From Candidatus Coproplasma excrementipullorum (GTDB lineage: Bacteria > Bacillota > Clostridia > Christensenellales > Borkfalkiaceae), in contig DVNU01000060.1 in assembly GCA_018714165.1 (NCBI GenBank), positions 1 to 34,739 of the forward strand: 34,739 bases of DNA, written 5' to 3'. The notes beneath the pieces are model-generated. The model saw only the letters and a list, made by a program, of their open reading frames with translations. It had not been told where the DNA came from and made no database searches. The position numbers were made by a program, and so were the translations under genes. This document shows positions 5,746 to 28,733 of the stretch, one piece after another (position 1 is the stretch's first letter; each line of letters begins with the position of its first letter).

Positions 5746-5776
5746 GGCAAAATAATTTTTAAAAAGGATATATAAT

Positions 5777-7309: not shown

Positions 7310-7316
7310 AACTGCT

Positions 7317-7550: not shown

Positions 7551-7622
7551 GCTGTGTTTATCAGACCGCGCTTTGCGCGGGTAGAATAAGGTAGGTTAGA
7601 TATATAAAAAAATAAATTTTTA

Positions 7623-7692: not shown

Positions 7693-7735
7693 TTAATAAA
7701 TGCGATATTTATTGTTAACGTGTGGTGATTAAACA

Positions 7736-8155
7736 ATGCAGTTTCAAAGATTTGGCAATAAAGTTATAGTACGGATAGACAGAGGGGAGGAGATTGTCTC
7801 TTCCCTTCAGTCTGTCTGTGAAAAAGAGGGTATAGCGCTGGCCTCGGTCTCGGCCATAGGCGCCGTAAATAACTTTACAGTCGGCGTGTTCTCGCCCTCA
7901 ACAAAGATCTATAAATCCAACCGCTTCGAGGGAGACTTCGAGATTGTCTCTCTTACAGGCACGGTAACTACTAAGGAAGGAATTCCTTACATTCACCTGC
8001 ATATGAGCGCGGGCGACGGCGAAGGCCGCGTTTTCGGCGGCCACCTCAATCAGGCTTTCGTCTCGGCCACCTGCGAGATGGTCATAGATATTTCGGACGG
8101 CACCGTAGAGCGGCAGTTTTCGGAGGAGATAGGTTTAAACCTCTTTAAGTTTTAA
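7736..8155 (+). CDS. PPC/DUF296-domain protein
   Basis: A 139-residue protein consisting of one PPC (DUF296) domain. Bacterial members are small trimeric proteins; in plants the domain is fused to AT-hooks. The family pattern is visible: ASVSAIGAVNNFTVGVF near residues 36-52, EIVSLTGTV, then HLHM (His87, His89) and GGHL (His103), the residues that form the putative metal site. The domain ends with LNLFKF, as in relatives. Bacterial function is unsettled; DNA binding is often annotated but not established. The SpoU methyltransferase ATG follows the TAA directly, so the two are very probably translationally coupled. Confidence 0.88.
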   Translation: MQFQRFGNKVIVRIDRGEEIVSSLQSVCEKEGIALASVSAIGAVNNFTVGVFSPSTKIYKSNRFEGDFEIVSLTGTVTTKEGIPYIHLHMSAGDGEGRVFGGHLNQAFVSATCEMVIDISDGTVERQFSEEIGLNLFKF

Positions 8156-8992
8156 ATGGACGTCAACGAGCTCTTAAAACAACTCAATTTCCAGCCCATA
8201 GGCGAGGCAAACGGCAGAATAAAGCGCGTAAAGGGCATAGTCTCCAACTCCAAGCCCAATCCCGAAAAGCTGTTCGCGGCGGAGGGTATCTGGCTGGCAT
8301 CCATGTGCCTCAAGTTCGGCACGCGCATAGACAGCCTCATTGTCTGCCCCGACTATGTCCGCACGCCAGAGGTATTGAAGCTCATCGGCGATTTGAGCGA
8401 GCGCACGCCCGACAGGTTTTGCGTGTCCGCCAAAACTTTCGAAAAGATTTCCGAAAAAGGCCAGCCCGACGGCATAATGGCCCTTGCCGCCCTGCCTCAG
8501 CGCGACATTGCCGACTTCATTCCCCCCAAGAAGTCGGTAATTCTCGTCATCGACGGGGTGGAGATACCCGGCAATGCGGGCACAATGCTGCGCATGGCCG
8601 ACGGCGCGGGTGCAGACGCGGTGTTCTTCTGTAACCGCAAGGTGCGAATGACTCACCCCAAGCTCATAAAATCGAGCCAGGGCGCCATACTTACCGTGCC
8701 GACTTACGAATTTTCCTCGGTGACGGAGTGCAGGAAGTGGCTGAGGCGCTTCGGCTTCACCGTCTACCTTGCCGATACGCGCGCCGATAAATTCTATTAC
8801 GACGAACCCTTCGGCAAGAACGCCGCGCTGGTTGTGGGCAGCGAACGCTACGGCATCGCCCGCGAGTGGTACGACGGCGACTATTCAATGATAGCCATTC
8901 CCATGCTCGGCAAGTGTGACAGTTTAAATGTCGGCGTGGCCGCAACCGTGCTCACTTACGAGGCCTGCATCAAAAATAAGTTAAAACAGTAA
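8156..8992 (+). CDS. SpoU/TrmH-family RNA 2'-O-methyltransferase
   Basis: A 278-residue SPOUT-class methyltransferase that would methylate a ribose 2'-OH in rRNA or tRNA using SAM. All three signature motifs are present: GNAGTMLRMADGAG (139-152), VGSERYG (227-233), and IPMLGKCDSLNVGVAATVL, with the Ser-Leu-Asn-Val core at 256-259. The N-terminal region (about residues 20-100) resembles the L30e-like substrate-binding domain of this family. The exact RNA target cannot be inferred. The ATG abuts the stop of the PPC-domain gene, and ppa follows after 27 nt, suggesting one transcript. Confidence 0.92.
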   Translation: MDVNELLKQLNFQPIGEANGRIKRVKGIVSNSKPNPEKLFAAEGIWLASMCLKFGTRIDSLIVCPDYVRTPEVLKLIGDLSERTPDRFCVSAKTFEKISEKGQPDGIMALAALPQRDIADFIPPKKSVILVIDGVEIPGNAGTMLRMADGAGADAVFFCNRKVRMTHPKLIKSSQGAILTVPTYEFSSVTECRKWLRRFGFTVYLADTRADKFYYDEPFGKNAALVVGSERYGIAREWYDGDYSMIAIPMLGKCDSLNVGVAATVLTYEACIKNKLKQ

Positions 8993-9019
8993 GAAAGTTA
9001 AGGAAAGTAAGGTATATTT

Positions 9020-9550
9020 ATGAATATCTGGCACGATATAGATAAGTCCAGGATAACGTCCGAGCAGTTCGAGGCGCTCATCGAGATACCCAAGGGCTGT
9101 AAAACCAAATACGAGCTGGACAAGCAGACGGGCATGCTCAAGATGGACAGGGTGCTGTACACCTCCACAGTCTATCCCGCAAACTACGGATTCATTCCGC
9201 TCACTTATGCCGAGGACGGCGACCCGCTGGACGTTTTAGTGCTGTGCGCCGACTCCATCTACCCCTTGACGCTCGTCACTTGCACGCCCATAGGCGTTAT
9301 AAAGATGCTCGACAACGGCGAATATGACGAAAAGATAATCGCCGTGCCCACGGGCGATCCCACCTATAAGGACTATAACGACATCCGCGAGCTTCCCAAG
9401 CACATTTTCGAAGAGATGATGCACTTCTTTTCGGTGTATAAATTTCTTGAGCAGAAGGTGACGGAGGTGAAGGAGATCTGCGGACGAAAAGAGGCTGTGA
9501 AGATCATTCAGAGCTGTATAAAAAGCTACGCTCTTAAATTCGGCAGATAA
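9020..9550 (+). CDS. ppa: Inorganic pyrophosphatase, family I
   Basis: A soluble enzyme that hydrolyses pyrophosphate to phosphate and pulls biosynthetic reactions forward. The 176-residue length fits the family I bacterial enzyme. The signature DGDPLDVLV is present, with the metal-binding Asp66, Asp68 and Asp71. The upstream segment VYPANYGFIPLTY and the later GDPTYKDYNDI are also diagnostic. An AAGG-rich leader precedes the ATG. It is the last gene of the PPC-SpoU-ppa run; a perfect hairpin terminator follows at 9571. A family I enzyme is notable because many Clostridia use family II or membrane-bound pyrophosphatases. Confidence 0.96.
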   Translation: MNIWHDIDKSRITSEQFEALIEIPKGCKTKYELDKQTGMLKMDRVLYTSTVYPANYGFIPLTYAEDGDPLDVLVLCADSIYPLTLVTCTPIGVIKMLDNGEYDEKIIAVPTGDPTYKDYNDIRELPKHIFEEMMHFFSVYKFLEQKVTEVKEICGRKEAVKIIQSCIKSYALKFGR

Positions 9551-17035: not shown

Positions 17036-18469
17036 TTAAGTGTACAAATCCTCATCGGGCGGGTCTTTGCGCCGTCTGCCGTTCCTGTCGCTCTTGCGGG
17101 TGAGGTAGAATATTACATAGCCTATGGCTATCAGCACAAGCAGAACTATCAGCAGAACGATTATAACCGTCTGGATGTTATTGTCAAATGTAAAGCCGTC
17201 CGTACCGGTCGTCTGTTCGTCCTCGTTTTCGGTGGCGAATGTGTAGGGGGTGAGAAGGCTCTGCGCCACAAATCCCGAAATTTCCTGTCCTTCCACAGTG
17301 CAGGTCACGCGGTAGTACTGCGTGTCTATATAGCTGAGCGAAAAGCTCTCTTCAACCGTGAAAATTGTGCCCGCGGGCACCTTAAAAATTACGCCGTTTT
17401 CATCGCGCGTAACAACTGTTGCCCCGCACATATATGGCCGCGAATATAAAATTACGTCCTCGCGCGCGTATGCCTGCTGTATATCCGGGGAGACAGATGT
17501 GTAGCTCTGCGCTTCTACCGCGGTGGTCAGGGTTATATAGCTCTGACTGAAGCCCTGCTCATCGGGCATCACAAAAATCGTGGCGTTTCCCACCTCGGCT
17601 ATGGCAATGGCGTTGCTGTCGTTGAGCAGTCTCTTGGTGCTGGGAACAGTTGTATTGCCCGACTGGTCGGTTATGTCCGGGGTGACAAACACTTCGCCGA
17701 TCGTCGTCAGGTCGACCTCGGTTATATAGGTGTTGTATCCGTCGGAAGTGCTGCTTCTTATTATTACGGGCTGTATCGTATAGTCTCCGAGCAGCGCTTC
17801 GGCCGCGTTGCCCGTGTTTATGCCGTTGTCCTTGCGCGTGTCCACGTATTCGGTGGAAACTTCGGTGGCGTTCAGTCCCTCCAGGCGATAGACGCCGTCG
17901 TCATAAATGATATAGGCTGTGTCGTTGTATACCTTGAGGTGGGAACAGCCCTCCTCAAACAGGTACTGCGGGTCGGGTTGGTCGATGTTGTAAACCATAA
18001 GCCCGCCGGACGAACTGTTGAGCACATATCTGTATCCGCCCGCGTCCACTTCGGTGTTGGTGGAAAATTCGTATTCGGCCTCTACCAGCTTGTTCTGCGA
18101 AGAGGCGTCGGGCACATAGCGGTATACCTGCGGCGGTGCGTAGACGTACAGGTTGCCCTCGTCGTCGTAGTCGATATCGGTTATGCGCGACGGCGCGGAC
18201 ACAGGTTCGCTCAGCTGATTGTCGCCATACACCTCGTCGGGCGAGATGATGAATAAATTCATATCGCTGGCAAAGGCGCTGCAACTGCCGTAAAAGGCGT
18301 AGTCTGTCAGGCCGTTGAAATCCTCGTGCTCCTTTAAATCCTCCACAAACTCAACGGGGTAAACGCATTCCCCGCTTTTGCTTTCGGCTTCGGGCGCCGC
18401 AAATACGTATGATGGCGCCAGAGCAAGGCATAGTGCCAGCGCCGTTGTGACTGCCGTCAATTTTTTCAC
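17036..18469 (-). CDS. Surface protein: signal peptide, SH3-like domain, C-terminal membrane anchor
   Basis: A 477-residue predicted cell-surface protein I cannot name. Residues 1-25 form a signal peptide (KKLTAVTTALALCLALAPSY). Residues about 60-330 contain short strand-rich repeats such as SRITDIDYDDEGNLYVYAP and DGVYRLEGLN, suggesting a beta-propeller-like fold. Residues about 335-415 look like a bacterial SH3 domain, ending GFVAQSLLTPY. A hydrophobic helix at about 434-455 and a basic tail complete it. GTG at 18469 is the start because the signal peptide begins there. A TTTACA-17-TATAAT promoter ends only 6 nt upstream. The gene at 19277-19924 has the same signal-SH3-like-anchor layout. 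A role in cell-wall binding or sensing is inference. Confidence 0.75.
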   Translation of the reverse strand: MKKLTAVTTALALCLALAPSYVFAAPEAESKSGECVYPVEFVEDLKEHEDFNGLTDYAFYGSCSAFASDMNLFIISPDEVYGDNQLSEPVSAPSRITDIDYDDEGNLYVYAPPQVYRYVPDASSQNKLVEAEYEFSTNTEVDAGGYRYVLNSSSGGLMVYNIDQPDPQYLFEEGCSHLKVYNDTAYIIYDDGVYRLEGLNATEVSTEYVDTRKDNGINTGNAAEALLGDYTIQPVIIRSSTSDGYNTYITEVDLTTIGEVFVTPDITDQSGNTTVPSTKRLLNDSNAIAIAEVGNATIFVMPDEQGFSQSYITLTTAVEAQSYTSVSPDIQQAYAREDVILYSRPYMCGATVVTRDENGVIFKVPAGTIFTVEESFSLSYIDTQYYRVTCTVEGQEISGFVAQSLLTPYTFATENEDEQTTGTDGFTFDNNIQTVIIVLLIVLLVLIAIGYVIFYLTRKSDRNGRRRKDPPDEDLYT

Positions 18470-18475
18470 GCTAAA

Positions 18476-18504
18476 ATTATACCACCTTTTATAAATATTG
18501 TAAA
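18476..18504 (-). promoter_or_regulatory. Promoter of the 17036-18469 gene, adjacent to its start
   Basis: On the minus strand, TTTACA (18504-18499), a 17-nt spacer and TATAAT (18481-18476), then only TTTAGC before the GTG start. Transcription would begin at or near the start codon. The GGTGG that might serve as a ribosome site lies between the two promoter boxes and would not be transcribed from here. Confidence 0.65.
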
Positions 18505-18623
18505 GTTTTTGCGCGCATATTGCGCACTGCTTGTTTATCTTTTGGCCACCTGCGGCGCAACTGTGCATCGGATGACCGCGCTTTTGCTCAAAGGGCCGTC
18601 TGCAAATTTTATAAGGCTCAGTC

Positions 18624-18658
18624 GGCGCGCCCCGCCCTCGGCGGGGCGCGCCTTTTTT
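18624..18658 (+). terminator. Strong intrinsic terminator with no upstream gene
   Basis: GGCGCGCCCCGCC (18624-18636) pairs perfectly with GGCGGGGCGCGCC (18640-18652), loop CTC, followed by six T. The nearest plus-strand gene upstream ends at 16901 and has its own terminator. It may end a small RNA or act as an attenuator or insulator before the phage-like genes. Confidence 0.85.
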
Positions 18659-18754
18659 AATTGTCAAAACAAAATCCTCCGCAAGCACACAAATTTTTTT
18701 AAAAAAAGTTAAATTTATTTTTTAATTATGCACTTTTTGTCAGCATTTTCGCTT

Positions 18755-18786
18755 TATAATAGTTCCGTAAACAAACAAACGTTTGT
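18755..18786 (+). promoter_or_regulatory. Possible promoter -10 box and operator palindrome
   Basis: TATAAT at 18755-18760 follows an A/T-tract-rich stretch, but no good -35 box stands at the right distance (TTGTCA at 18737 is only 12 nt away). The perfect palindrome ACAAACGTTTGT (18775-18786) lies just downstream, where a repressor would block transcription. Confidence 0.45.
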
Positions 18787-18833
18787 ATTTGTTTAAATGT
18801 TCTTTCACCGCCGTGAGGCAGAGGAGGCAGACT

Positions 18834-19229
18834 GTGACCAGTAAAAAATTGCTCAGATTTTATTTTCGGGCCGAAAGGCTCAACGTAGTGCTCGACGGCG
18901 CGGCCATGCGCGCGGCGCTGGCTTCGGCATCGGGCGGATACGCCGGCGAGCACTACGCCGACAGGATAATAACCATAATCGACGCCAAGCGCAAGCTGTC
19001 GTCGCTCTGGGCATATCTCAACGAGGTCATATCCTCCTTGAGCGACGGCGACAGACGGGTGCTGGCATACTACGCACAGCTTCGGGGCGGCTATTCGGCC
19101 CTCCCCGCCGCGCAGGCAAAGGCAGTGCGCAGGGTGGTTGTAAAATTTGTCCGCCGCGCAAGATATCTCGGCCGGCATAAGCAGGCTGTAGAGCTGGTGG
19201 GCTCAATGTCCGCGCTTTTGGGCGGGTAG
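18834..19229 (+). CDS. Putative phage-type sigma-like regulator
   Basis: A 131-residue basic helical protein. The middle and C-terminal parts resemble small phage regulators related to sigma-70 region 4 (ArpU/DUF1492 type): YADRIITIIDAKRKLSSLW, then LNEVISSLSDGDRRVLAYYA at about residues 63-82, then a possible recognition helix in KAVRRVVVKFVRRARYL. Such genes often precede terminase genes in Clostridia prophages and control late transcription. A small terminase subunit is an alternative. GTG at 18834 has GAGGAGG just upstream and is a better start than ATG at 18783, which lies in the leader. The minus-strand gene at 19277-19924 separates it from the terminase. Assignment is tentative. Confidence 0.5.
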   Translation: MTSKKLLRFYFRAERLNVVLDGAAMRAALASASGGYAGEHYADRIITIIDAKRKLSSLWAYLNEVISSLSDGDRRVLAYYAQLRGGYSALPAAQAKAVRRVVVKFVRRARYLGRHKQAVELVGSMSALLGG

Positions 19230-19276
19230 GCCCTTTGGCTGTCCGGTTAAACGGCCGCAAGATGGTGCCACGCCTG

Positions 19277-19924
19277 TCAGTCGCTCTTGCGCTTTTTGGT
19301 GGAGAGGAACACGAGTATTATGGCCCCCGCGGCCAGGGCAACTATTACGACGGCCGTCACTACGGACGCGTCGCCGCCGCTCTCGTCCACGGTCTCCTCC
19401 GTCTCGTCGGTGGGCAGAGGGTTGAGGGGGTAGTCGTCGTTGGCGCCCGCTATGTAGCCGAACGACCCGTTGCACAGCACGTAGGAATAGGCTGTCGCGC
19501 CCGAATAGTATGTGCCGTAAAATGCGGCCTCCACTTCAATTTCGCCGAGGGCGGGCAGCGAGGCGCTGTCGTCGCCCGCACTGTAGGTTATGGTCACGCT
19601 CTTTATCAGGTAAATGTCGGGGGGAGGCTCGGTCAAAAGATAGAAGTCGCTCTTGAGCACGTACCCGTAGAGCGCGCGGTATATGCCCTCGTCCTCGGCA
19701 TACTGAACGTAGTACCACTGCCCGTCGTCGCGCACAATGCGAACGCAATAGGTGTACGGCACGGCAAAGAGGGAGGTGGACAGATCCTTCTGCGAAAAGA
19801 AGTAGGCGGTGGAGTTTGCCGCCTGGGCGTAGCTTTCGGTCTCCGCCGAAGCTTCCGCCCGTCCGCCCGTTCCGCAAAATGTCAGAGCGATGACGCAAAT
19901 TATTATAAATAATAATTTCTTCAT
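19277..19924 (-). CDS. Surface protein with signal peptide and C-terminal membrane anchor
   Basis: A 215-residue predicted exported protein. The N-terminal signal is MKKLLFIIICVIALTF, with a possible cleavage region at AEASAE. Residues about 34-100 look like an SH3-type barrel (NSTAYFFSQKDLS, then GQWYYVQYAEDEGIY and YGYVLKSDFYLL). A second strand-rich segment follows, ending GSFGYIAGAND. An acidic linker, a hydrophobic helix at about 186-206 and the basic tail STKKRKSD complete it. The layout repeats that of the larger protein at 17036-18469. It sits antisense between the putative regulator and the terminase. A TATAAT box ends 8 nt before the ATG with no usable ribosome site. Function is unknown. 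Confidence 0.75.
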   Translation of the reverse strand: MKKLLFIIICVIALTFCGTGGRAEASAETESYAQAANSTAYFFSQKDLSTSLFAVPYTYCVRIVRDDGQWYYVQYAEDEGIYRALYGYVLKSDFYLLTEPPPDIYLIKSVTITYSAGDDSASLPALGEIEVEAAFYGTYYSGATAYSYVLCNGSFGYIAGANDDYPLNPLPTDETEETVDESGGDASVVTAVVIVALAAGAIILVFLSTKKRKSD

Positions 19925-19932
19925 ACCCGCTG

Positions 19933-19938
19933 ATTATA
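19933..19938 (-). promoter_or_regulatory. -10 box close to the start of the 19277-19924 gene
   Basis: TATAAT on the minus strand, 8 nt before the ATG at 19924. The -35 position (ACATTT) is poor, so this is weaker evidence than the other close promoters. Confidence 0.4.
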
Positions 19939-19959
19939 TACCGCACGGCGGGCCGAAAT

Positions 19960-21426
19960 GTGGGAGATTTTGTCGCAAAATATATGTGTAAGCAGGAAAT
20001 ACTTGAGCGCATAGCGCGCATAGACGCAATTCTGGCCGCGCGCGCAAAAAACAATAAGCTGGCGCGGTACAATGCGGGGCGAAAAAAGCACAAAAAGCAG
20101 ATGGCCTTTCACCGCTGCAAAAAGCGCAACCGCTGGGTGTTCGGGGGCAACCGTTCGGGCAAGACTGAGTGCGGCGCTGTCGAGGCCATATGGCTGGCGC
20201 GCGGCATTCACCCCTACCGCAAAAACCGTAAGGACGTGTTCGGGTGGGTGGTGTCCCTCTCCCAGCAGGTTCAGCGCGACGTCGCCCAGAGCAAAATTCT
20301 TTACTATCTGCCTGCAAGCTGGATAGTCGACATAACAATGCTTTCGGGCCGCAAGGACAGCCCGTCGGGCGGCATCATAGACCAGATAAAGATCAAAAAC
20401 GTGTTCGGCGGAATTTCGACCATCGGCTTCAAGACGTGCGACCAGGGCCGCGAAAAATTTCAGGGGAGCTCGCTCGACTTTGTCTGGTTCGACGAGGAGC
20501 CGCCGCGCGACGTGTACGAGGAGTGCGTTATGCGCGTAATGGATAAGCGCGGCGACATATTCGGCACGATGACGCCCTTGAAGGGCATGACCTTCATCTA
20601 CAACGAAATTTATCTCAACCGCAGAAACAACCCCGAAGTATGGTGCGAGTTCATGTGCTGGGACGACAATCCCTATCTTTCCAGGCAGGAGATAAAGCTT
20701 CTGGAGAGCGCGCTCGACGAACAATCCCTCGACAGCCGCCGCTACGGCAAGTTCTCTTCGGGCGCGGGGCTCGTCTATCCCGAATTCGACCCGTCCGTGC
20801 ACGTCATTCCGCCCTTTAAAGTGCCCGGTGAGTGGCAGGACACAATTTCAATCGACCCCGGCCTCAACAATCCCCTGTCGGCGCACTGGTACGCCGTCGA
20901 CTGGGACGGCAACATATATGTTGTGGCAGAGCACTTCGCGGCCGGCAGAGATGTGGACTTTCATGCGCGTTCGATAAATGATATGTGCAGGGCAATCGGC
21001 TGGAAGAGCGACTCAAAGGGCAGGTATTCGGCGCTCATAGACTCGGCCGCCTCGCAACGCACGCTGGCCTCGTCAAAGAGCGTGGCAGAGCTGTTCTGCG
21101 ACAGCGGGATAATGGTCAACACCAAGGTCAACAAGGATGTGTTTGCGGGCATCTGCCGCGTTAAGGAGTATTTAAAGCGGGGCAACGGCAGGGCGGATAT
21201 CTATATATTCGATACCTGCAAAAATATGATAGAGGAGTTTTTGACCTATTCCTGGGCGGCGGGCGACAGTCCCAAGAAGGTGGACGACCACTGCATGGAC
21301 GAGCTCCGCTACTACATAATGAGCCGCCCCCGCCCCGCCGAGCGCCCGAGCAAATCGCCCGTGGGCGCAGACAAGGCCAGACGGATACGCAGGCTGAGGA
21401 ATTCAAGGTTAAACAGGGAGGTGTAA
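19960..21426 (+). CDS. terL: Phage terminase large subunit
   Basis: The ATP-driven DNA-packaging motor and headful nuclease of tailed phages, docking on the portal. It is 488 residues from GTG 19960; ATG 19984 (480 residues) is a possible alternative, and neither has a strong ribosome site. The ATPase domain has Walker A GGNRSGKT (62-69), Walker B with Asp178-Glu179 in FVWFDEEP, and the coupling motif GTMTPL. The RNase H-like nuclease domain keeps three acidic residues: Asp299 (SIDPG), Asp361 (LIDSAAS) and Asp447 (MDELRY). All catalytic positions are therefore intact and there is no frameshift, unlike a decaying gene. The TAA is followed directly by the next ATG. No clear promoter lies in the 35 nt upstream. 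Confidence 0.95.
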   Translation: MGDFVAKYMCKQEILERIARIDAILAARAKNNKLARYNAGRKKHKKQMAFHRCKKRNRWVFGGNRSGKTECGAVEAIWLARGIHPYRKNRKDVFGWVVSLSQQVQRDVAQSKILYYLPASWIVDITMLSGRKDSPSGGIIDQIKIKNVFGGISTIGFKTCDQGREKFQGSSLDFVWFDEEPPRDVYEECVMRVMDKRGDIFGTMTPLKGMTFIYNEIYLNRRNNPEVWCEFMCWDDNPYLSRQEIKLLESALDEQSLDSRRYGKFSSGAGLVYPEFDPSVHVIPPFKVPGEWQDTISIDPGLNNPLSAHWYAVDWDGNIYVVAEHFAAGRDVDFHARSINDMCRAIGWKSDSKGRYSALIDSAASQRTLASSKSVAELFCDSGIMVNTKVNKDVFAGICRVKEYLKRGNGRADIYIFDTCKNMIEEFLTYSWAAGDSPKKVDDHCMDELRYYIMSRPRPAERPSKSPVGADKARRIRRLRNSRLNREV

Positions 21427-21693
21427 ATGCAGAAAGACGACGATTTGGAACAGGCACTCAAAAAATGCGCGGTGGGCTTCGATACGAGCGAAACAGTGGA
21501 GGAGTTTGCCGTGCAGGACGGCGAACTGAGGCTGGTCAAGCGCAAGGTCACCCGCCGTGACATTCCACCCGATATCAAGGCCGTAAAAATGCTCCTCGAC
21601 GGCAGGCAGGACATCGGTGAACTTTCCGACGAAGAGCTGGCCGCCGAGCGCGAAAAATTATTAAAAATGCTTAAGGAGGAGGACTTTGACTGA
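21427..21693 (+). CDS. Small protein between terminase and portal, unknown
   Basis: An 88-residue charged protein. The middle contains a strand-like stretch (EEFAVQDGELRLVKRKVT), then RRDIPPDIKAVKMLLDG and a C-terminal helix ELSDEELAAEREKLLKML that could be a short coiled coil. I do not recognise a named family. The position suggests a terminase- or portal-associated factor; a small terminase subunit is possible but it lacks an evident DNA-binding helix-turn-helix. It begins immediately after the terminase stop and overlaps the portal gene by 8 nt. The ribosome site for the portal (AAGGAGGAGG) lies inside its last codons. Confidence 0.75.
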   Translation: MQKDDDLEQALKKCAVGFDTSETVEEFAVQDGELRLVKRKVTRRDIPPDIKAVKMLLDGRQDIGELSDEELAAEREKLLKMLKEEDFD

Positions 21694-23533
21694 AAAGACA
21701 GACGCCGCCCGCAGGGCGGAGAAACAACTGGTAGACGACGTAAAGAGCGATTTCGCCCGCAGACAGGAGGAGCGCCGCGCCATAGAGCGCGGCTGGCAGC
21801 TCAACATGAATTTTCTGTGCGGCAATCAGTACTGCGACGTCAATTCACTGGGCGAGATAGAGGAGGACGCGCCGGGATTCTTCTGGCAGACGAGGCGCGT
21901 GTTCAACTACATAGCGCCCACCATAGATATGCGTTGTGCAAAGCTCAACCGCATACGCCCCAAGCTGGCCGTGCGGGCGGCCACCGATTGCGATGAGGAC
22001 GTGCGCTCGGCGCGCATTTCCTCGGCAGTGCTTGCGGCCGTTGCGGAGAGGGAAAACCTCGACGACTGTATAACCCGTGCCACAATCTGGTCGGAGACGT
22101 GCGGCACGGCCTTCTATAAGATCATCTGGGACAACTCGGCGGGCAGCACCATAGCCGCCACCGAGGAGGGCGAACTGCGCGACGGCGGCGTAAAGATAAT
22201 GCCGCTCTCGCCCTTTGAAATCTACCCTGCGGCCCTCTCGGAAGAGAGTATAGAGGGGCAGCCCAGCATTATACATGCCAAGGCCGTGGCCGTGGAGGAC
22301 ATCTATGCCGTCTACGGCGTAAAACTGCCCGGCAGGGACATAGACGAATTTTCGCTTTCGCCCTACTCGGCCTCGGTACATTCGGTCACGCGTTCTGCGC
22401 CCGTCAAGGCCGTAAAGCACGGCTACGAGATAGTCATCGAGCGCTACGAGCGCCCCGCCGAGGACATTCCCAACGGCAGACTGACCATAGTTGCGGGCGA
22501 CACGCTGCTCTTCGACGGCGACCTGCCCTATATAAACGGCCCTGACGGCACGCGCGGCTATCCCTTCGTCAGGCAGAACTGCCTGCCGCTCGCGGGCGGC
22601 TTCTTCGGCGGGAGCGTGGTGGACAGGCTCATCCCCGTCCAGCGCGCCTACAACGCCGTCAAAAACCGCAAGCACGAGTTTTTAAACAGAATTTCTATGG
22701 GCACGATCGCCGTCGAGGACGGTTCCGTCGATACCGACGACCTGTTGGAGGACGGCCTGGCGCCCGGCAAAATTCTCGTCTACCGCCAGGGCGGAACGCC
22801 GCCTGCAATGCTCGCGCTCGGCTCGGTGCCCGCCGAATTCTCCGAAGAGGAGGACAGGCTGGTTGAGGAATTCGGCAAGGTTTCGGGCGTGGGCGAAATC
22901 ACGCAGAGCGCAAATTCATTCAATTCGGTCACTTCGGCCACGGGACTGCAACTTCTCATCGAACAGGACGAGACCCGCCTCACCGTCTCATACGAGCAGA
23001 TAAAGTCGGCGTTGAAGGCTATAGGGCGGCACATATTGTGCCTCTACCGCCAGTTCTCGCCACAGATGCGCGTCATGCGCGGCGCGCACGAGGACGGGAA
23101 GGCGGCTATGCTCAGCTTCTCTTCGGCAGATCTCTCGTGCGACGACGTCGTGCTGGAGGCCGACAGCGAAATAAACCTCTCGCCCGCCCGCCGCAGAACG
23201 CTGATGTACGAGCTCATGTCGAGCGGACTATTATCCGATGCGCAGGGCAAATTGCCCGAAGGGACGAAGAATAAAATTTTAACCTACCTCGGCTACAACG
23301 GGCTTGCCGCCGGGCGGGATATTGCCGCCCTTCACCGCGCCCGCTGCGAGGAGGAGAACGCAAAGCTCTTAAAGGGCGACGTGCCCGTAAAGTTTTACGA
23401 CGACCACGCCCTGCACATAGAGGGGCACACGGCGTTTATTTTAAGCAACAATTTAACCGCCGCAAACGAGGCGGCCTTCGAACGCCACCTCGACGGACAT
23501 AAAAAAGCATTAAAGGAGGAACAGAATGGATAA
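21686..23533 (+). CDS. Phage portal protein
   Basis: A 615-residue portal, the dodecameric ring at the capsid vertex through which DNA enters. The N-terminal part is typical of P22-type and related podovirus portals: a charged helix (RRQEERRAIERGWQLNMNFL), then GNQYCDV, then RVFNYIAPTIDMRCAKL. The central region includes YPFVRQNCLPLAGGFFGGS and VVDRLIPVQRAYNAVKNRK, and ENLDDCITRATIWSETCGT lies in the wing/clip region. The later segment SATGLQLLIEQDETRLTVSYEQ is also portal-like. Length is at the upper end for siphovirus portals and normal for podovirus ones. The start is TTG at 21686 with a strong AAGGAGGAGG site. It overlaps the genes on both sides by 8 nt. Confidence 0.88.
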   Translation: MTEKTDAARRAEKQLVDDVKSDFARRQEERRAIERGWQLNMNFLCGNQYCDVNSLGEIEEDAPGFFWQTRRVFNYIAPTIDMRCAKLNRIRPKLAVRAATDCDEDVRSARISSAVLAAVAERENLDDCITRATIWSETCGTAFYKIIWDNSAGSTIAATEEGELRDGGVKIMPLSPFEIYPAALSEESIEGQPSIIHAKAVAVEDIYAVYGVKLPGRDIDEFSLSPYSASVHSVTRSAPVKAVKHGYEIVIERYERPAEDIPNGRLTIVAGDTLLFDGDLPYINGPDGTRGYPFVRQNCLPLAGGFFGGSVVDRLIPVQRAYNAVKNRKHEFLNRISMGTIAVEDGSVDTDDLLEDGLAPGKILVYRQGGTPPAMLALGSVPAEFSEEEDRLVEEFGKVSGVGEITQSANSFNSVTSATGLQLLIEQDETRLTVSYEQIKSALKAIGRHILCLYRQFSPQMRVMRGAHEDGKAAMLSFSSADLSCDDVVLEADSEINLSPARRRTLMYELMSSGLLSDAQGKLPEGTKNKILTYLGYNGLAAGRDIAALHRARCEEENAKLLKGDVPVKFYDDHALHIEGHTAFILSNNLTAANEAAFERHLDGHKKALKEEQNG

Positions 23534-23972
23534 CACCACAACCAACATCCCGGCCGCGGCAGACCCCGCGCAGGCGGAAGAGAACAGGACAGCTGCGACA
23601 GGGCTGGGAAAATTCAGGGACGTGGATGCCCTGCTCGAAGCCTACACGAGTCTTGAGGCCGAGTTTACCCGACGCAGCCAGCGGCTGAAAGAACTCGAAA
23701 GAGCGGTAAAGGAGGTGGCGCCCGCACAAGCGGCGGCAAGCGATACGCCTTCCCCGCAGGCCGGGCAATCAGGCGCGCAACTGTCCGACGCGGCAAAAAA
23801 CGATGAAGAGGTCAAGGCGCAGATTATAGCCGAATACCTCGAAAACGCGGCGAAAAACAGAAGCGTGCCACTCATCTCGGGCGGAGTAAAGATCTCCGCC
23901 CAGCGCAGGGTGCCCGCAAGCGTGCGCGAAGCGGGAGCCCTTGCACAACAATTTTTAAATAAAAGGAGATAA
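23526..23972 (+). CDS. Probable capsid scaffold protein
   Basis: A 148-residue acidic-to-basic protein placed directly before the capsid gene, the usual scaffold position. A conserved-looking helix GKFRDVDALLEAYTSLEAEF leads into TRRSQRLKELERAVKEV (about residues 28-64), giving a coiled coil. An Ala/Pro-rich disordered linker (about 65-88) follows, then helix DEEVKAQIIAEYLENAAKN. The basic C-terminus (AQQFLNKRR) fits the capsid-binding end of scaffold proteins. No protease motif is seen, so the scaffold would be expelled rather than digested. ATG 23526 overlaps the portal stop, with AAGGAGG upstream. The call rests on position and architecture. Confidence 0.75.
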   Translation: MDNTTTNIPAAADPAQAEENRTAATGLGKFRDVDALLEAYTSLEAEFTRRSQRLKELERAVKEVAPAQAAASDTPSPQAGQSGAQLSDAAKNDEEVKAQIIAEYLENAAKNRSVPLISGGVKISAQRRVPASVREAGALAQQFLNKRR

Positions 23973-23975
23973 AAA

Positions 23976-25133
23976 TTGATTACATTGTCTAATGCAGATG
24001 CGGCTTTGAAGGAGTATTACCTCGACGCCGTAACACAGGAACTCAACCAGGGCGTATCGCCCTTCTTCAGCGCCATCGAAAAGAGCACGCAGTACATCTA
24101 CGGCAAGAACGCAAAGTGCGCGCTCATCAAGGGCGATATGAACAGAATAGTAACCGGCGACGAGGACGGCGATCTGCCCTCGGCCACTGGCAACAACTAT
24201 TACGACGTCAGCCTGCCGTTAAAGAACATCTACGGCACGGTAGCCATCACCGATAAGGCCCTGCGCGCCTCTCAGGATTCTTCGGGCGCCTTCGTCAATC
24301 TTTTGAATGCCGAGATGGAGGGGCTCGTCGCCGACGCAAAGGCCAATTTTGCGCGCATGCTCTTCGGCAACGGCAACGGTCTGCTCGCCTACATAACTGC
24401 GGCCAACAGCGGCACCACCTTCAAGCTTACAAGCGTAAAGAGCTGGTACAAAGACCTCATAGTCGACATTGCCGACGCAACGGGCACTTCCGCTTCGGTA
24501 ATGGAGCTCAAGATATCTTCCGTCGATACGCAGAACGGCACCGTAACTTTCAATAAATCTGTCACCAACCACGCAAACTATGTCGGCTATCCTGTCGTCA
24601 TAAGCGGCGCATACGGCAAGGAGCTCACGGGTCTTTCGGCCATTTTCGACAACGCCACCCTCTACGGCTATACCAAGAGCACGGACGACTTTTTCAGTCC
24701 CTATGTAAAAACTTACTCCACGCTCACCGAGGACGTGATCACGGGCGCCATCGAGGAGATCGAAGAGCGCGGCGGCGACAAGGTAAAGATGATCATCTGC
24801 TCGCACGCCGTCCGTTCCAAGATAGCTTCGCTCTTCAAAGATATGCGCGTGATCGGCACGCCCCAGATAAACGGGGGATATTCGACGGTATATGTCAACG
24901 AAATACCCGTCTATGCCGACAGGTTCTGCCCCTCCGACAGAATATATCTTTTGAATCCCGACGACTTCGTGTTGTGCCAGCTGTGCGACTGGGAGTGGAT
25001 GGAGGACGACGGCGGCAGAATTTTAACGCGCGTTGCCGACAAGGCCGCGTACACCGCAACCCTTGTAAAGTATGCCGAGCTTATCTGCAAAAAGCCCTAC
25101 GCACAGGGTATGCTTCAGCTCGTCACCACATAA
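23976..25133 (+). CDS. Major capsid protein, HK97-fold type
   Basis: A 385-residue shell protein. The N-arm helix (NADAALKEYYLDAVTQELN) and an E-loop-like region (about residues 50-75) are followed by TVAITDKALRASQDSSGAF and the helix FVNLLNAEMEGLVADAKANFARMLF. Residues about 143-225 read as an inserted beta domain (KLTSVKSWYKDLIVDI, later VGYPVVISGAYGKELTGL), as in P22-like coats. The C-terminal P-domain includes KVKMIICSHAVRSKIASL and IPVYADRFCPSDRIYLLNP. No N-terminal delta domain or protease site is visible. The start is TTG at 23976 with AAAGGAG 7 nt upstream; a stop codon at 23970 rules out an upstream start. A strong hairpin follows the gene at 25159. Confidence 0.9.
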   Translation: MITLSNADAALKEYYLDAVTQELNQGVSPFFSAIEKSTQYIYGKNAKCALIKGDMNRIVTGDEDGDLPSATGNNYYDVSLPLKNIYGTVAITDKALRASQDSSGAFVNLLNAEMEGLVADAKANFARMLFGNGNGLLAYITAANSGTTFKLTSVKSWYKDLIVDIADATGTSASVMELKISSVDTQNGTVTFNKSVTNHANYVGYPVVISGAYGKELTGLSAIFDNATLYGYTKSTDDFFSPYVKTYSTLTEDVITGAIEEIEERGGDKVKMIICSHAVRSKIASLFKDMRVIGTPQINGGYSTVYVNEIPVYADRFCPSDRIYLLNPDDFVLCQLCDWEWMEDDGGRILTRVADKAAYTATLVKYAELICKKPYAQGMLQLVTT

Positions 25134-25158
25134 TCCGGCGGGCTGTATAAACAGAGAG

Positions 25159-25187
25159 GCGGCCGCGCGCATATGGCGCGCGGCCGC
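25159..25187 (+). promoter_or_regulatory. Hairpin between capsid and adaptor genes
   Basis: GCGGCCGCGCGC (25159-25170) pairs perfectly with GCGCGCGGCCGC (25176-25187) around ATATG. No T-tract follows, only ATAAAATAAGGAGG leading into the next gene. It could protect the capsid mRNA 3' end, pause polymerase or lower downstream expression. Confidence 0.7.
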
Positions 25188-25205
25188 ATAAAATAAGGAG
25201 GAGCA

Positions 25206-25766
25206 ATGCAAGTAAAAAATATTTTAATCGACGTCATGCGCATGGTCGGGCGGCCGGATGCGGCCGAGGAATGCGAGGGCGACGGCCAGCTTTCCGGGGA
25301 AACGGAGCGCATGCAGCGCGCCCTGCTGCTCTGCCTCAACGCCGTCACTGACGAGCTCGCGCGCGGATACTTCCCGCTCAAAGACGTGCAGTCATTATCG
25401 TCGCAGAGCGGTGAATATTCCTATTCTTCGTTTGAGCATACTCCCTACCGCATAGTGCGTGTCACTTCGGACGGAAAAAAGGTCAGGTGGAGCGCCGAAC
25501 CGCTCAGCCTCGTCTGCGACAGCAAGTCGGTGGAGGTGGAGTACGAGTACGTGCCCGATGCGCTCGGACTTTCGGACGAGTTCTCATATCCGGACAGCAG
25601 CGTTGGCGTTGCGCTGGTGAGCTATGGCGTGGCTGCCGAATATATGCTCATCGCGGGCGAGGTGGAGAGCGCCGAGATGTGGGAGAGCAAGTACCGCTCC
25701 GAAATTGACAGACAGCTGTCGCTCTCTCCCGTAAGGGGGCGCGTGCCTCCGAGGAGGTGGCTGTGA
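25206..25766 (+). CDS. Probable head-tail adaptor protein
   Basis: A 186-residue protein in the position of the connector that joins portal and tail. The N-terminal half is helical (NILIDVMRMVGRPD, then ERMQRALLLCLNAVTDELAR). It leads into a strand-rich middle (YRIVRVTSDGKKVRW, then SVEVEYEYVP) and a C-terminal helical part (VALVSYGVAAEYMLIAG, then MWESKYRSEIDRQLSL). This alternation matches gp4/gp6/gp15-type adaptors, which form a ring under the portal. It has a strong GGAGG site before ATG 25206 and its TGA overlaps the next gene's GTG. Family assignment is by position and fold pattern. Confidence 0.75.
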   Translation: MQVKNILIDVMRMVGRPDAAEECEGDGQLSGETERMQRALLLCLNAVTDELARGYFPLKDVQSLSSQSGEYSYSSFEHTPYRIVRVTSDGKKVRWSAEPLSLVCDSKSVEVEYEYVPDALGLSDEFSYPDSSVGVALVSYGVAAEYMLIAGEVESAEMWESKYRSEIDRQLSLSPVRGRVPPRRWL

Positions 25767-27013
25767 AGATCAGGCTGCGCAAGAGCACGACCTACTACAG
25801 ACCCTCCGCAAAGAATGTTGACCTGCTCGACGAAGGCTGCTGTCTCCGCACGGTAAATCTTATACGGGACGACGGACATTATTTCCCCGCCGTTTCGGCC
25901 GTGGCGCAGCAGACCTTTGCCGACTGTCCCGAAGGGGTTGAAGGAGCGTACTATTCCGAGGGCAACGGCGCGCTGTTCGTTATCACCGCGACCGATGTTT
26001 ACCGCCTCGACAGCGGAGCGTCGGCGTATGTGAAGATAGCCGACAGCCTTTCGGAGAAGCCCTTCTTTATCGATATGTACATCAACGGCTTTTCTGCTAC
26101 CACTATGTTCAGCGGCAACAGCCGCGTGGTGTTCACGGGAATGGCGCAGGACACCGCAACGGACGATCACCTGTTTTCAACGGGCGTTGTGCACTGCGGC
26201 AGGTTTTTCGCCGTCGATAAATCGGACGGGTTCAAGTTGTGGTGGGCGGCTTCGCACCCCCTCGACTGGGAGGAGGGCATCTACGGCTGCGGCTATGTAT
26301 GGCTGCCCGCCGAGGGCGGAAAAATTTTGCGCCTCTTCAGCTACGACGACCGCCTCGTGGCCGTGAGAGAGCGCGGCATAACCGTCGTTCGCGCCTACGG
26401 CGAGCCCCAGAACTACAAGGTTGACGCCACGGCCAACTACCTGACGGCCGACGGCATAATCGGCGATACCTGCGCGCTGTGCGGCGGGCAGATAGTTTTT
26501 TGTACGGACAGCGGCATCTATGCCTTCGACGGCTCGGACATCGAACGGCTCATGCGCTTTGATTGCGGCATATCCGCACCCCTTTGTGCGGCGGCCTGCG
26601 GCGAGAGGTACTTTTTAATGTGCACCGAAGAACACCTCGGCGAGGGCTGCGTGTACTGCTTTGACCTGTCTGAAGGGCTGGGTGCGGCGTGCGATATAAA
26701 GCCCTCCGCCCTCTTTTCGGGGCCCGACGGGGTGTATGCCGTCATCGGCACGGCTATCAAAAAGCTGCTTCCGGGCGAAGGGGAGGGAGAGTGGTATTCG
26801 GCCGAAGTGCGCTTCGGCGGGAGCAGAGCCCTTTTAAAGAGCATAGAGGCGGAGTGCGACGGCGAGGTGTCCGTCACTGTCTCCGCTCTCGGCGTGTCGC
26901 GCACCTTTTCGGGCAGCGGCGTGCACAGGGTAGGTATGAGCGGCAGTTCATTTTCTTTTTGCGTGCAGGCGGGCGGAACTCTCCGCACCCTCACAGCGCG
27001 GGCGGAGGTGTAA
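25763..27013 (+). CDS. Probable tail nozzle/hub protein, beta-propeller-like
   Basis: A 416-residue strand-rich protein. Repeated blade-like units are visible: GNGALFVITATDVYRLDSG, GKILRLFSYDDRLVAVRE, GGQIVFCTDSGIYAFDGS, CGERYFLMCTEEH and GPDGVYAVIGTAIKKLLPG. They are spaced roughly 45-70 residues apart. This fits a propeller like those of podovirus tail hubs (P22 gp10) and T7-type nozzles. The N-terminus RLRKSTTYYRPSAKNVDLL resembles the strand that docks on the adaptor ring. GTG 25763 is preferred to GTG 25757 because AGGAGG lies just before it and the 4-nt overlap with the adaptor stop is typical. It suggests a short, podovirus-like tail. Confidence in phage tail role is good; in exact homology, moderate. 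Confidence 0.7.
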   Translation: MKIRLRKSTTYYRPSAKNVDLLDEGCCLRTVNLIRDDGHYFPAVSAVAQQTFADCPEGVEGAYYSEGNGALFVITATDVYRLDSGASAYVKIADSLSEKPFFIDMYINGFSATTMFSGNSRVVFTGMAQDTATDDHLFSTGVVHCGRFFAVDKSDGFKLWWAASHPLDWEEGIYGCGYVWLPAEGGKILRLFSYDDRLVAVRERGITVVRAYGEPQNYKVDATANYLTADGIIGDTCALCGGQIVFCTDSGIYAFDGSDIERLMRFDCGISAPLCAAACGERYFLMCTEEHLGEGCVYCFDLSEGLGAACDIKPSALFSGPDGVYAVIGTAIKKLLPGEGEGEWYSAEVRFGGSRALLKSIEAECDGEVSVTVSALGVSRTFSGSGVHRVGMSGSSFSFCVQAGGTLRTLTARAEV

Positions 27014-27508
27014 ATGGATTTCGACATAATCGATCTGACCGAAGAGGAGGCCGAGTCGCTCTCCACCATACAGCTCAAGCTTCTGCGCACCGCCCAGCAG
27101 AACAAAAACGAGCTCTACCACAAGCTTCAGCAGGAGATAAACACCTACTACTGTCTGTGCAATACCAACAACGTCTATCTCGGTTCGTTGTTTACCGACA
27201 AGAAGGCCGAGCTTGAGGCTGAGTTTGACTATCAGGTGGCAATCCTGAAGGAACAGCTCATATTCAATATGAGCCTGAGCGAGCCGACCAACGACGATGA
27301 AACGGGTTCAAGCGGCAGCGACGACTCAGGTTATATCGTCGATTACGAGCTGTCCTATCTCGAACGCTACATTCAGGTCAGGGACTACTACCTCGGCATA
27401 GAGGACGCGTCCGAGCGCATGGCTCTGTTCGCCGCCGACGAAACTGCACAGAGCTACCTGGGAAGTTATTACACAACCTTATACAACTATCTTTCCACCT
27501 ATACCTGA
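27014..27508 (+). CDS. Last gene of the phage-like operon, unknown
   Basis: A 164-residue acidic protein I do not recognise. A helical N-terminal region (SLSTIQLKLLRTAQQNKNEL, then LYHKLQQEINTYYCL) and a second helix (KKAELEAEFDYQVAILKEQL) could form a coiled coil. An acidic Ser/Gly-rich linker (about 94-110) is followed by a Tyr-rich C-terminal helical part (LSYLERYIQVRDYYLGI, later YYTTLYNYLSTYT). It has no signal peptide or membrane helix. The ATG follows the nozzle stop directly. In short-tailed phages this slot may hold ejection, tail-needle or receptor-binding proteins, so it is the only candidate here for a tip or cargo component. A strong terminator follows. Confidence 0.75.
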   Translation: MDFDIIDLTEEEAESLSTIQLKLLRTAQQNKNELYHKLQQEINTYYCLCNTNNVYLGSLFTDKKAELEAEFDYQVAILKEQLIFNMSLSEPTNDDETGSSGSDDSGYIVDYELSYLERYIQVRDYYLGIEDASERMALFAADETAQSYLGSYYTTLYNYLSTYT

Positions 27509-27526
27509 TTTTCTTTGTTATCGGGG

Positions 27527-27561
27527 CGCGGCGCGGCCATTGCGGCCGCGCCGTGTTTTTT
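27527..27561 (+). terminator. Terminator of the phage-like operon
   Basis: CGGCGCGGCC (27529-27538) pairs with GGCCGCGCCG (27544-27553), loop ATTGC, followed by TGTTTTTT. It starts about 20 nt after the last gene. Confidence 0.85.
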
Positions 27562-27564
27562 GGC

Positions 27565-27690
27565 CTGTCATTCCGACTGGAGCGAAGCGGAACGGAGAAA
27601 TCTATCGATAAAATACGGTCTATGGTAAAGCCATAGCGGACGCATACTGCGGCTTAAAGATAGATTTCTCGGCTGCGCTCGAAATGACAG
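27565..27690. repeat. 126-bp MITE-like inverted-repeat element
   Basis: The left arm begins CTGTCATTCCGACTGGAGCG and ends GAGAAATCTATC (to 27606). The right arm (27659-27690) is its diverged reverse complement, ending CGAAATGACAG. An inner hairpin, CTATGG-taaag-CCATAG, is at 27620-27636. The arms carry the motif seen at 2117-2162 and 7635-7662. It is probably a non-autonomous mobile or REP-type element that landed behind the phage-like operon. Confidence 0.7.
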
Positions 27691-27824
27691 AGTAATAATA
27701 TCGAACAAAGTTGTCTGCAAGAGATGCCGGTTAATGTGAAAGGGCAAGATTGCGGAACCCGACAGCGGGGTTACTCGCAGAGAATAGTTGGGGTGGTGAG
27801 ATTTTTTCAGCGGCGCGCTTTTGC

Positions 27825-27853
27825 TTTACTTTTGCGCGCGGATATTTTATAAT
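27825..27853 (+). promoter_or_regulatory. Promoter of the methyltransferase gene, adjacent to its start
   Basis: TTTACT (27825-27830), a 17-nt spacer and TATAAT (27848-27853), then 7 nt to the ATG at 27861. The message would start at or within a base or two of the ATG. Confidence 0.7.
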
Positions 27854-27860
27854 AATTGCC

Positions 27861-28733
27861 ATGAAGATATCAGGCGGCTGGAAAGATTATCGCATAATTG
27901 CCACGGGCGACGGCATGAAACTCGAAAAATGGGGGGACGTGTGTCTTTTGCGCCCCGACCCGCAGGTCATATGGAAGAGCTCGTTCGATCTCTATTCCTA
28001 CCCCGCAATCAACGCCGTGTACCGCAGAAGCCGCAGCGGCGGAGGCGGCTGGGAGAGGAGAAAGCCCTTCCCCGACGAATGGACAGTGGCGTACAACGAC
28101 CTCGCCTTCAAAATAAAGCCCATGGGCTTCAAGCACACGGGCCTCTTCCCCGAACAGGCCGTCAACTGGGATTATATGCGTTCGCTCATAGAGGAGCGCA
28201 GGGCGGCCAGCCCGCAGGACAAAATTAAGGTTTTAAACCTCTTCGCCTACACGGGCGGCGCGTCTGTGGCCTGCGCAAAGTCGGGCGCCGAGGTCACGCA
28301 CGTCGACGCGGCAAAGGGCATGGTCGAGCGCGCGGGCGAAAACACACGCCTTTCGGGCATAAATTCGGGCATACGCTACATAGTCGACGACTGTGCAAAG
28401 TTCGTCGCGCGCGAAATACGCCGCGGCAACCGCTACGACGCCATAATTATGGACCCGCCCAGCTACGGCCGCGGCCCCGGCGGCGAGATGTGGAAGATAG
28501 AGGACAACCTCTTCGACTTTGTCACCCTCTGCTCGCAGGTGCTGGCAGACAGACCGCTCTTCGTGCTAATCAACAGTTACACCACGGGCCTCCAGCCCTG
28601 CGTGATAAGCAACATATTGAAGCTGACATTAAAGCAGTTTGAAGGCAGTGTGGAGGCATACGAGATAGGCCTGCCCACCGACGAGGGCATACCCCTTCCC
28701 TGCGGCAACAGCGGCATATTCACAGGTAAATGA
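27861..28733 (+). CDS. Class I SAM-dependent RNA methyltransferase (RlmI/RlmK-like)
   Basis: A 290-residue Rossmann-fold methyltransferase. The N-terminal segment (WKDYRIIATGDGMKLEKWG, then LLRPDPQVIW) matches Clostridia relatives annotated as rRNA cytosine methyltransferases. Motif I is NLFAYTGGASVACA (about residues 126-139), the acidic end of strand 2 is HVDAAKGMVE, and motif IV is DPPSYGRG (198-205), a form used for base N or C5 methylation. The phrase PMGFKHTGLFPEQAVNWD is a conserved family marker. The RNA target is not determinable. ATG 27861 is chosen by homology. The upstream frame is meaningless, and a promoter -10 box lies 7 nt before the ATG with no ribosome site between. The pseudouridine synthase gene follows after 1 nt. 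Confidence 0.87.
   Translation: MKISGGWKDYRIIATGDGMKLEKWGDVCLLRPDPQVIWKSSFDLYSYPAINAVYRRSRSGGGGWERRKPFPDEWTVAYNDLAFKIKPMGFKHTGLFPEQAVNWDYMRSLIEERRAASPQDKIKVLNLFAYTGGASVACAKSGAEVTHVDAAKGMVERAGENTRLSGINSGIRYIVDDCAKFVAREIRRGNRYDAIIMDPPSYGRGPGGEMWKIEDNLFDFVTLCSQVLADRPLFVLINSYTTGLQPCVISNILKLTLKQFEGSVEAYEIGLPTDEGIPLPCGNSGIFTGK

Follow-up and report, generated by a model that had tools for sequence, protein, structure and literature searches.

The window analysed here is a whole 34,739-nucleotide stretch from Candidatus Coproplasma excrementipullorum (order Christensenellales; GenBank contig DVNU01000060.1), and it contains a cluster of phage-type particle genes that probably works like a gene transfer agent (GTA). 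NCBI lists the genus Coproplasma under Clostridia, Eubacteriales incertae sedis, and GTDB has it in the family Borkfalkiaceae of Christensenellales. A check of the open reading frames located eight of them at positions 19960–27508, all intact and reading in one direction on the plus strand, in the order given by a preliminary description of this DNA. Six of the seven junctions overlap, abut or leave a 3-base gap; the exception is the 72 bases between the capsid gene and the gene for a 186-residue protein. An intrinsic terminator on the same strand (~27524–27559; −32.8 kcal/mol, z −3.6) closes the unit, in keeping with the tight junctions and the single strong terminator described earlier.

Family searches identified the large terminase subunit (TerL, 19960–21426), a portal of the P22/SU10 type (21686–23533), an assignment to which the portal tree adds, and a major capsid protein of the SU10 type (phrog_14242; 23976–25133), all three with the roles first proposed. 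The scaffold-like protein (23526–23972) gave no family match of weight in these searches and is named for its position, length and partial conservation. The head–tail adaptor (186 residues, 25206–25766) and the propeller-like tail nozzle (418 residues, 25757–27013), previously suggested from the sequence, are supported by AlphaFold2 models with predicted local distance difference test (pLDDT) scores of 94.9 and 93.9, respectively. The best solved matches of the adaptor model are mostly adaptors of short-tailed phages, with the P1 connector ranking second, and the first 15 structure matches have E values of 1.8e-5 to 7.5e-4. The nozzle model adopts the P22 gp10/Sf6 gp8 fold; Foldseek aligned it with the podophage tails of Pa223, Pan3, GP4, Sf6 (gp8) and P22 at E values of 7.7e-15 to 1.6e-11, whereas general beta-propellers appeared only from 1.6e-8. 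Such a short-tail nozzle is unlike the tail of RcGTA, the GTA of Rhodobacter capsulatus. The last gene (27014–27508) encodes a 164-residue protein, the presence of which had been noted as an unknown; it is a short relative of the coiled-coil family F9 (hhalign probability 97.5), a longer family placed behind the nozzle in other bacterial families, and it is perhaps a plug, needle or ejection protein.

The residues that we take to be the TerL Walker A lysine, the Walker B Asp-Glu pair and the three nuclease aspartates are invariant in all 43 genomes compared, as expected from the claim that the ATPase and nuclease sites are kept; two further positions of the Walker A motif are less conserved and differ in up to 10% of these genomes. 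The gene that follows TerL (21427–21693) encodes the 88-residue protein, reported earlier as such and here given an identity: its homologies identify it as a small terminase reduced to the C-terminal part, with the N-terminal DNA-binding domain absent. Thirty-eight of the 44 members of its family match the small-terminase family phrog_309 at E ≤ 0.1 (best 8.6e-9), although the window's own member gives no phrog_309 match by itself. Among seven members detailed, five match only positions 188–261 of the 319 in phrog_309 and two have no match. The phage-like IMG/VR contigs L246 (48 kb) and L248 (60 kb), about 21 kb of each of which was examined, encode small terminases of 157 and 165 residues. 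In a two-sequence search the second half of each matches the profile of the 88-residue family (E 1.8e-8 and 2.9e-9), and ahead of these halves lie ~60 extra N-terminal residues that are helix-turn-helix-like by eye. An intact TerL paired with a small terminase that has lost the part for specific DNA choice points to DNA packaging as the selected function. In a study of the RcGTA small terminase (PMC6854486), the missing N-terminal domain is proposed to explain random packaging and to mark GTA terminases.

The cluster is widespread among relatives of its host. At E ≤ 0.001 a capsid match was obtained in 148 of 200 sampled relatives, normally one per genome and over 18 family codes: in the genome itself, in 83 of 92 genomes of the same genus (three remnants and one gene with two stops included), in 25 of 27 from other genera of the family and in 39 of 80 from other families of the order. 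Capsid identities are 47–80% within the genus (full-length sequences), ~40–46% within the family and 35–44% within the order. A search of 50,697 phage records returned 13 capsid matches, every one below 27% identity. Gene order is constant wherever it is spanned in 72 regions (the window and 71 loci), with few exceptions; TerL is absent from L085 and L092, where it is unlinked, and the 88-residue match precedes TerL in L097. Synteny and presence in relatives, two of the comparisons proposed at the outset, both favour the initial interpretation of a domesticated, GTA-like particle.

Most of the IMG/VR contigs with a capsid identity of at least 36% (L031, L201–L259) resemble chromosome pieces carrying the cluster, and 12 carry both the regulator and the SH3-like gene described below; the viral collection therefore seems to hold these chromosomal loci as viruses. 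In the single-contig genome G151 (L080/L081), TerL, portal and capsid are each present in two copies.

Trees of TerL, portal and capsid were built for 43 genomes from 14 families, five of which were sampled more than once. G078, with a split rpoB, and G110 and G116, with no rpoB match, were left out of the trees; the operon trees do not include G151, with its two copies, or G309, G355 and G225. Each of the five multiply sampled families forms one clade in the operon tree, which has 24 of 40 splits in common with the rpoB tree (maximum of 2 in 500 label shuffles). The Mantel correlation with rpoB is 0.61 for the three genes together, 0.73 for TerL and 0.52 for the portal, with 0 of 2000 permutations as high for each. 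The 33 cluster portals form one clade, which takes in only L243 and L245 out of 16 others (SH-like approximate likelihood ratio test support of 98).

The arrangement of the genes in family f28 bears on whether the cluster is a prophage. In six of the seven f28 genomes with both genes, 38–103 kb of a single contig separate TerL from the capsid gene, and both frames are open; G319 keeps the two together and G146 has neither. TerL lies beside the regulator and the SH3-like gene in all four unlinked regions examined, and the remaining cluster stays together in three capsid regions. Unlinking without decay is not expected of a prophage. G319 also carries two tandem capsid genes within its cluster (L352 8035–10380). 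A dispersed relative outside the order occurs in f76 (L346–L349, L122–L124), where three genomes have a TerL of 52–53% identity on a contig separate from a scaffold–capsid–nozzle set; this set adjoins genes reading as serC and serA in four of four genomes, with leu genes on the opposite side in L346 and L347.

Repeated acquisition of a capsid-carrying satellite or of an ordinary prophage that has become defective is favoured by two findings: relatives of the portal and capsid occur in phage-like contigs and in prophages (L246, L248, L125, L130), and the capsid tree is partly mixed. Against it stand trees congruent with those of the host, a chromosomal site shared by most of the genus, a single copy as the rule and the intact state of the split f28 clusters. 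Nor were the hallmarks of prophages or satellites detected beside it. The absence of integrase, repressor and replication genes, as stated in the preliminary description, holds for the 20 window proteins searched, a set that does not include the genes at 85–9550. The sole pair of direct repeats within 18500–28200 (12-base seeds) is 23 nucleotides long at 78% identity (18896–18918 and 27529–27551). It is G+C-rich, with one copy within the regulator gene and the other in the terminator, and is probably due to chance, which leaves no convincing attachment repeat, again as first described. The satellite alternative, which had been put forward at the start, found no support and was discarded, since neither an integrase nor a primase occurs among the 20 proteins. 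Taken together, repeated acquisition of a prophage or satellite is improbable.

Selection on the cluster was assessed with pairwise ratios of non-synonymous to synonymous substitution rates (dN/dS) from four distinct close pairs; L099 and L100 are duplicates of L042 and L041 and do not enter as pairs of their own, and the row for L039, which lacks the front half of the cluster, was dropped. Over the eight genes dN/dS ranges from 0.06 to 0.43, a result of the proposed check that favours a maintained cluster. The values are 0.06–0.12 for TerL, 0.06–0.11 for the 88-residue gene, 0.09–0.16 for the portal, 0.27–0.36 for the scaffold, 0.11–0.19 for the capsid, 0.13–0.25 for the adaptor, 0.18–0.43 for the nozzle and 0.06–0.13 for the last gene. 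The regulator yields 0.09–0.33 in three pairs (the fourth was saturated) and the SH3-like gene 0.12–0.24; two host genes yield 0.03–0.12. These ratios, far below 1, also bear on the suggestion that a prophage was trapped here recently and its remnant is now decaying, a view favoured by the fact that in some species of the genus the cluster is broken, replaced or absent. The capsid gene is open in most genomes of the genus and present in 17 further families, and the trees follow the host. A recent remnant is thus scarcely credible: it is largely contradicted by the capsid distribution (148 of 200), the congruence with rpoB and the low dN/dS, and was rejected.

Two genes ahead of TerL belong to the same unit. 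In G025 and G045 they are absent jointly with all eight cluster genes, and the up- and downstream neighbours lie side by side. The first (18834–19229, plus strand), which starts with GTG and has AGAGGAGG ahead of it, encodes a phage-type transcription regulator; the earlier statement that no regulator is present is therefore incorrect. In one-sequence searches the regulator matches F15, the family found in the genus, at 1.8e-47, and the related F14, which holds the same position in other families, at 5e-9. At E ≤ 0.01, 12 of the 34 F15/F14 members match phrog_36 (phage transcriptional regulator) and 4 sigma-70 region 4; the regulator of the window itself matches neither. The second gene (19277–19924, minus strand) encodes the SH3-like protein F6, which by eye has a signal peptide and a C-terminal membrane anchor and would be secreted. 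Five of 41 F6 members have an SH3_3 match, the window's own not included. This gene is divergent from TerL, with 36 bases between the start codons, and adjoins TerL even where TerL is unlinked from the remaining cluster. It lies antisense between regulator and TerL (19277–19960); since read-through from the regulator promoter would run against it and oppose its expression, an either-or switch is possible.

A LexA-type (SOS) box, AAACAAACGTTTG (18773–18785, plus strand), lies downstream of a TATAAT element and ahead of the regulator. Boxes were counted at loci with a called regulator, 22 within the genus, among them that of the window, which was positioned manually, and 22 in other genera and families. 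The pattern RAACRNRYGTTY, which we take to be the Bacillus LexA/DinR type, is present ahead of the regulator at 21 and 15 of these, respectively; dinucleotide shuffles gave means of 0.25 and 0.22 with maxima of 2 and 3, and the reversed pattern was found at one genus locus and two others. At three of the 36 positive loci (L044, L101, L083) the box falls 20–47 bases inside the called regulator start, and these starts were probably called too early. A lexA gene was found in 29 of 30 genomes searched, 27 over the cut-off. The form RAAC-N4-GTTY precedes lexA at 26 of 30 loci, that of the window genome included, where it lies at −61 (mean of 0.77 and maximum of 4 in mononucleotide shuffles, the only control used for the lexA box). 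Because RAACRNRYGTTY recurs at the regulators and RAAC-N4-GTTY at lexA, control of the cluster by LexA is likely, and the cluster appears from these boxes to be switched on by DNA damage. The string CGAACRNRYGTTYC occurs together with LexA in one paper (PMC2248561). In the window genome RAACRNRYGTTYG has three matches, namely the regulator box, a site preceding a radical SAM gene for DNA repair (TIGR03916) and an intragenic site, versus 19 for the reversed-pattern control. A search of 30 genomes with the promoter-plus-box pattern for a second co-controlled locus returned one match each in 14 genomes, none in 16 and two in none.

Genes for release and uptake were also surveyed. Behind the tail genes, 19 of the 27 regions that stem from other families of the order have one or two holin-like genes; the 47 regions of the window's own family yielded none. 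Proteins of this group have matches to BhlA (3.5e-17) and to Phage_holin_1 (4.9e-5 in L351 and 9.2e-8 in an IMG/VR member). The preliminary description, which saw no lysis gene within the window, is thus only partly right, since the same cluster carries holin genes in other families. The window's genome would have to use lysis genes elsewhere, or none. ComEC is encoded in 51 of 61 genomes, the window's own among them.

The proposal of a domesticated, GTA-like, short-tailed packaging particle is thus supported by synteny, dN/dS and presence in relatives. The reading that we favour, with a probability of roughly 0.78, is a GTA-like system in which the head and tail set of a short-tailed phage was domesticated early in the history of the order and has been inherited vertically since. 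This suggests that the particle serves to transfer DNA of the bacteria themselves and that the cluster is not a carried virus. A wider statement combines several elements and is likely too, if somewhat less so: an ancient, separately exapted lineage of short-tailed GTAs would run through a whole order of uncultured gut Clostridia, wired to the SOS response via LexA boxes, packing DNA with a small terminase reduced to its non-specific part and frequent enough to be an everyday route of DNA exchange in animal guts, with a mobile defence element recurrently removing the packaging core.

Vertical descent, purifying selection and the SOS box would fit equally well if the domesticated phage particle had another job, for example that of a killing particle that packs host DNA without delivering it, as has been discussed for PBSX of Bacillus subtilis. 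The fast-evolving nozzle (dN/dS up to 0.43) could then reflect variation of target surfaces, and the authors of PMC12946183 raise the same possibility for FpGTA, the GTA of Faecalibacterium. The conserved TerL catalytic residues and a small terminase without the part for specific DNA choice speak for packaging, and no toxin family exceeded the cut-off among the cluster proteins. A killing particle is accordingly an unlikely explanation, though the least improbable of the alternatives.

Several observations weigh against the GTA-like reading. The capsid follows the host less closely, as judged from its lower Mantel correlation of 0.24 (a value reached in 13 of 2000 permutations), and in the tree phage-like capsids are interspersed with those of the clusters (33 cluster capsids, 16 others, five label changes); because of these two results, capsid exchange with phages is possible. 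No capsid match was obtained in 41 of 80 genomes from other families of the order. Among the 92 genomes of the genus, G086, G066 and G012 keep a capsid remnant only, G077 keeps two ends, the G011 capsid gene has two stops, and G025 and G045 are without the unit. The strict RAACRNRYGTTY precedes lexA at just 9 of 30 loci (shuffles: mean 0.08, maximum 2), and the lexA box of the window genome has the looser form. For the genome of the window, neither a lysis gene nor a tail fibre was detected, the search being confined to the window (the assembly is 81% complete). Finally, the particle, its packaged DNA and their transfer are inferred, the system being known here from its genes.

The part missing from G086, G066, G012 and G077 extends from about codon 286 of TerL to about codon 338 of the capsid gene, and the right side of G077 lacks the capsid end as well. 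A single contig covers the whole replacement in G086 alone; the other three stop at contig breaks, so that the element is indicated there by its ends. These are near-identical on the left in G086, G066 and G077 and on the right in G086, G066 and G012. The G086 insert (L198 5557–13800) is 8.2 kb long and has a G+C content of 36% versus 53% around it; its genes include the Thoeris pair ThsA and ThsB and one for a type II methyltransferase. G086 retains the adaptor, nozzle and last gene. An element with conserved ends thus replaces the packaging core at the same two places, and its ends also occur in L199, L296, L289 and L290.

For the GTA-like system the following course can be proposed. LexA, by the sequence of the box, would repress the regulator gene until DNA damage lifts the repression. 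The regulator would then activate the cluster, or read-through from its promoter would transcribe it from TerL to the 164-residue gene. Capsid, scaffold and portal, to judge from their families, would assemble into a procapsid, and the intact terminase with its stripped small subunit would fill the head with host DNA without sequence preference, by analogy with RcGTA. Adaptor and nozzle, as their predicted folds suggest, would close the head and form the short tail. Release would occur by lysis, with holins encoded within the cluster in other families and presumably by genes elsewhere in the window's family. Recipients may take up the DNA via ComEC.

As far as sequence allows, three of the six features in the GTA definition of PMC9662315 can be recognized, which makes the cluster a candidate member. 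The other three are packaging of random host DNA, to which the shortened small terminase points indirectly, a head too small to take up the system's own genome in full, and delivery of the packaged DNA to other cells. The particle proteins, in their families and folds, are Caudoviricete-derived; inheritance is vertical (24 of 40 splits with rpoB), with the capsid clearly weaker (r 0.24); the host flanks on both sides and the unlinked TerL of f28 bear on a further feature. Few GTAs are known outside Alphaproteobacteria according to PMC12946183 (Borodovich et al. 2026), in which FpGTA is described as the first podovirus-like GTA, with 8.4–8.9 kb of DNA in 40 nm heads. Compared by description rather than by sequence, FpGTA and the present cluster are both podovirus-like, occur in Clostridia and have an operon with TerL, portal, scaffold and capsid and no replication genes; FpGTA likewise has a possible small terminase without an obvious DNA-binding domain. 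However, FpGTA has been reported in one genus and comprises FpGTA I (10.5 kb) and FpGTA II (baseplate, fibre, holin, endolysin), with the small-terminase gene ahead of TerL, whereas the cluster here spans 18 family codes of one order, has a LexA-type box, places the small-terminase gene behind TerL and includes holins within the cluster in other families.

RcGTA resembles the cluster in its small terminase without the N-terminal DNA-binding domain, its vertical inheritance and its parts at several loci (PMC6854486, PMC7947584, PMC6473078), but belongs to a different phylum and has a direct activator, GafA, under CtrA in place of a LexA-type box. Alphaproteobacterial GTAs do touch the SOS network, an example being the putative LexA sites of the GTA cluster in Dinoroseobacter (PMC6473078). 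In the GTA of Caulobacter (CcGTA) the LexA-like RogA likewise acts as a repressor over activator genes, gafYZ; however, RogA is without key cleavage residues and came from an SOS-independent screen (PMC9632790), whereas the box here resembles that of lexA itself. Short-tailed phages of the P22/Sf6/SU10 type share the families and folds of portal, capsid, adaptor and nozzle, but the cluster differs from them in its shortened small terminase and in the lack of replication, integration and fibre genes among the window proteins searched.

Among the titles and abstract openings listed in searches of open-licence papers, none describes this operon. GTAs as such are known; new here is a short-tailed, SOS-linked, order-wide GTA-like cluster. 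If the reading is correct, the order would possess a heritable, SOS-controlled route of gene exchange in the gut through a short-tailed GTA, and the truncated small terminase would be a further independent case of such truncation with GTA evolution and hence a usable genomic marker. The accessible text of PMC12946183 reports three GTA-like packaging events in Christensenellaceae (HGM11616, QANA01) and names no cluster for them; the present cluster is a candidate to check against these.

A different conserved mini-locus occurs in four genera of family f48 (L113, L114, L115, L117–L120). It comprises genes for a 287-residue protein, a portal-like protein of 564 residues, an XRE-like protein on the opposite strand, an F14-like regulator and TerL. 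Its TerLs are 71–91% identical to that of L114, and several loci adjoin a gene reading as YqgF. It is possibly another GTA-like system; its identification as FpGTA was rejected because the gene order does not fit.

The surroundings of the cluster are of host type. G+C content at third codon positions is 0.64–0.76 in the cluster genes and 0.69–0.77 in four host genes, which agrees with the host-like composition noted earlier, and host genes border the cluster on both sides. Of the families that flank the unit in the genus, F10 (upstream) was detected in 27 regions and F11 (downstream, a methyltransferase) in 26; almost all of these regions come from the same genus. Flanks of regions other than the window were compared by clustering rather than by family search, and these family counts are lower bounds because some small genes were overlooked or wrongly placed by the simple gene caller used. 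The F10 gene (17036–18688, minus strand) is similar in build to the SH3-like gene, and its product is SH3-like by weak profile similarity to F6; there is a strong hairpin at 18624–18652. An Rfam search of the window gave no match. A tRNA-Ser predicted at 28077–28167 was rejected as an attachment site, since it lies inside the methyltransferase gene on the opposite strand and is probably spurious. Directly behind the terminator, a 26-nucleotide inverted repeat (27586–27679; arms 81% complementary and 42 nucleotides apart) resembles a small intergenic repeat element.

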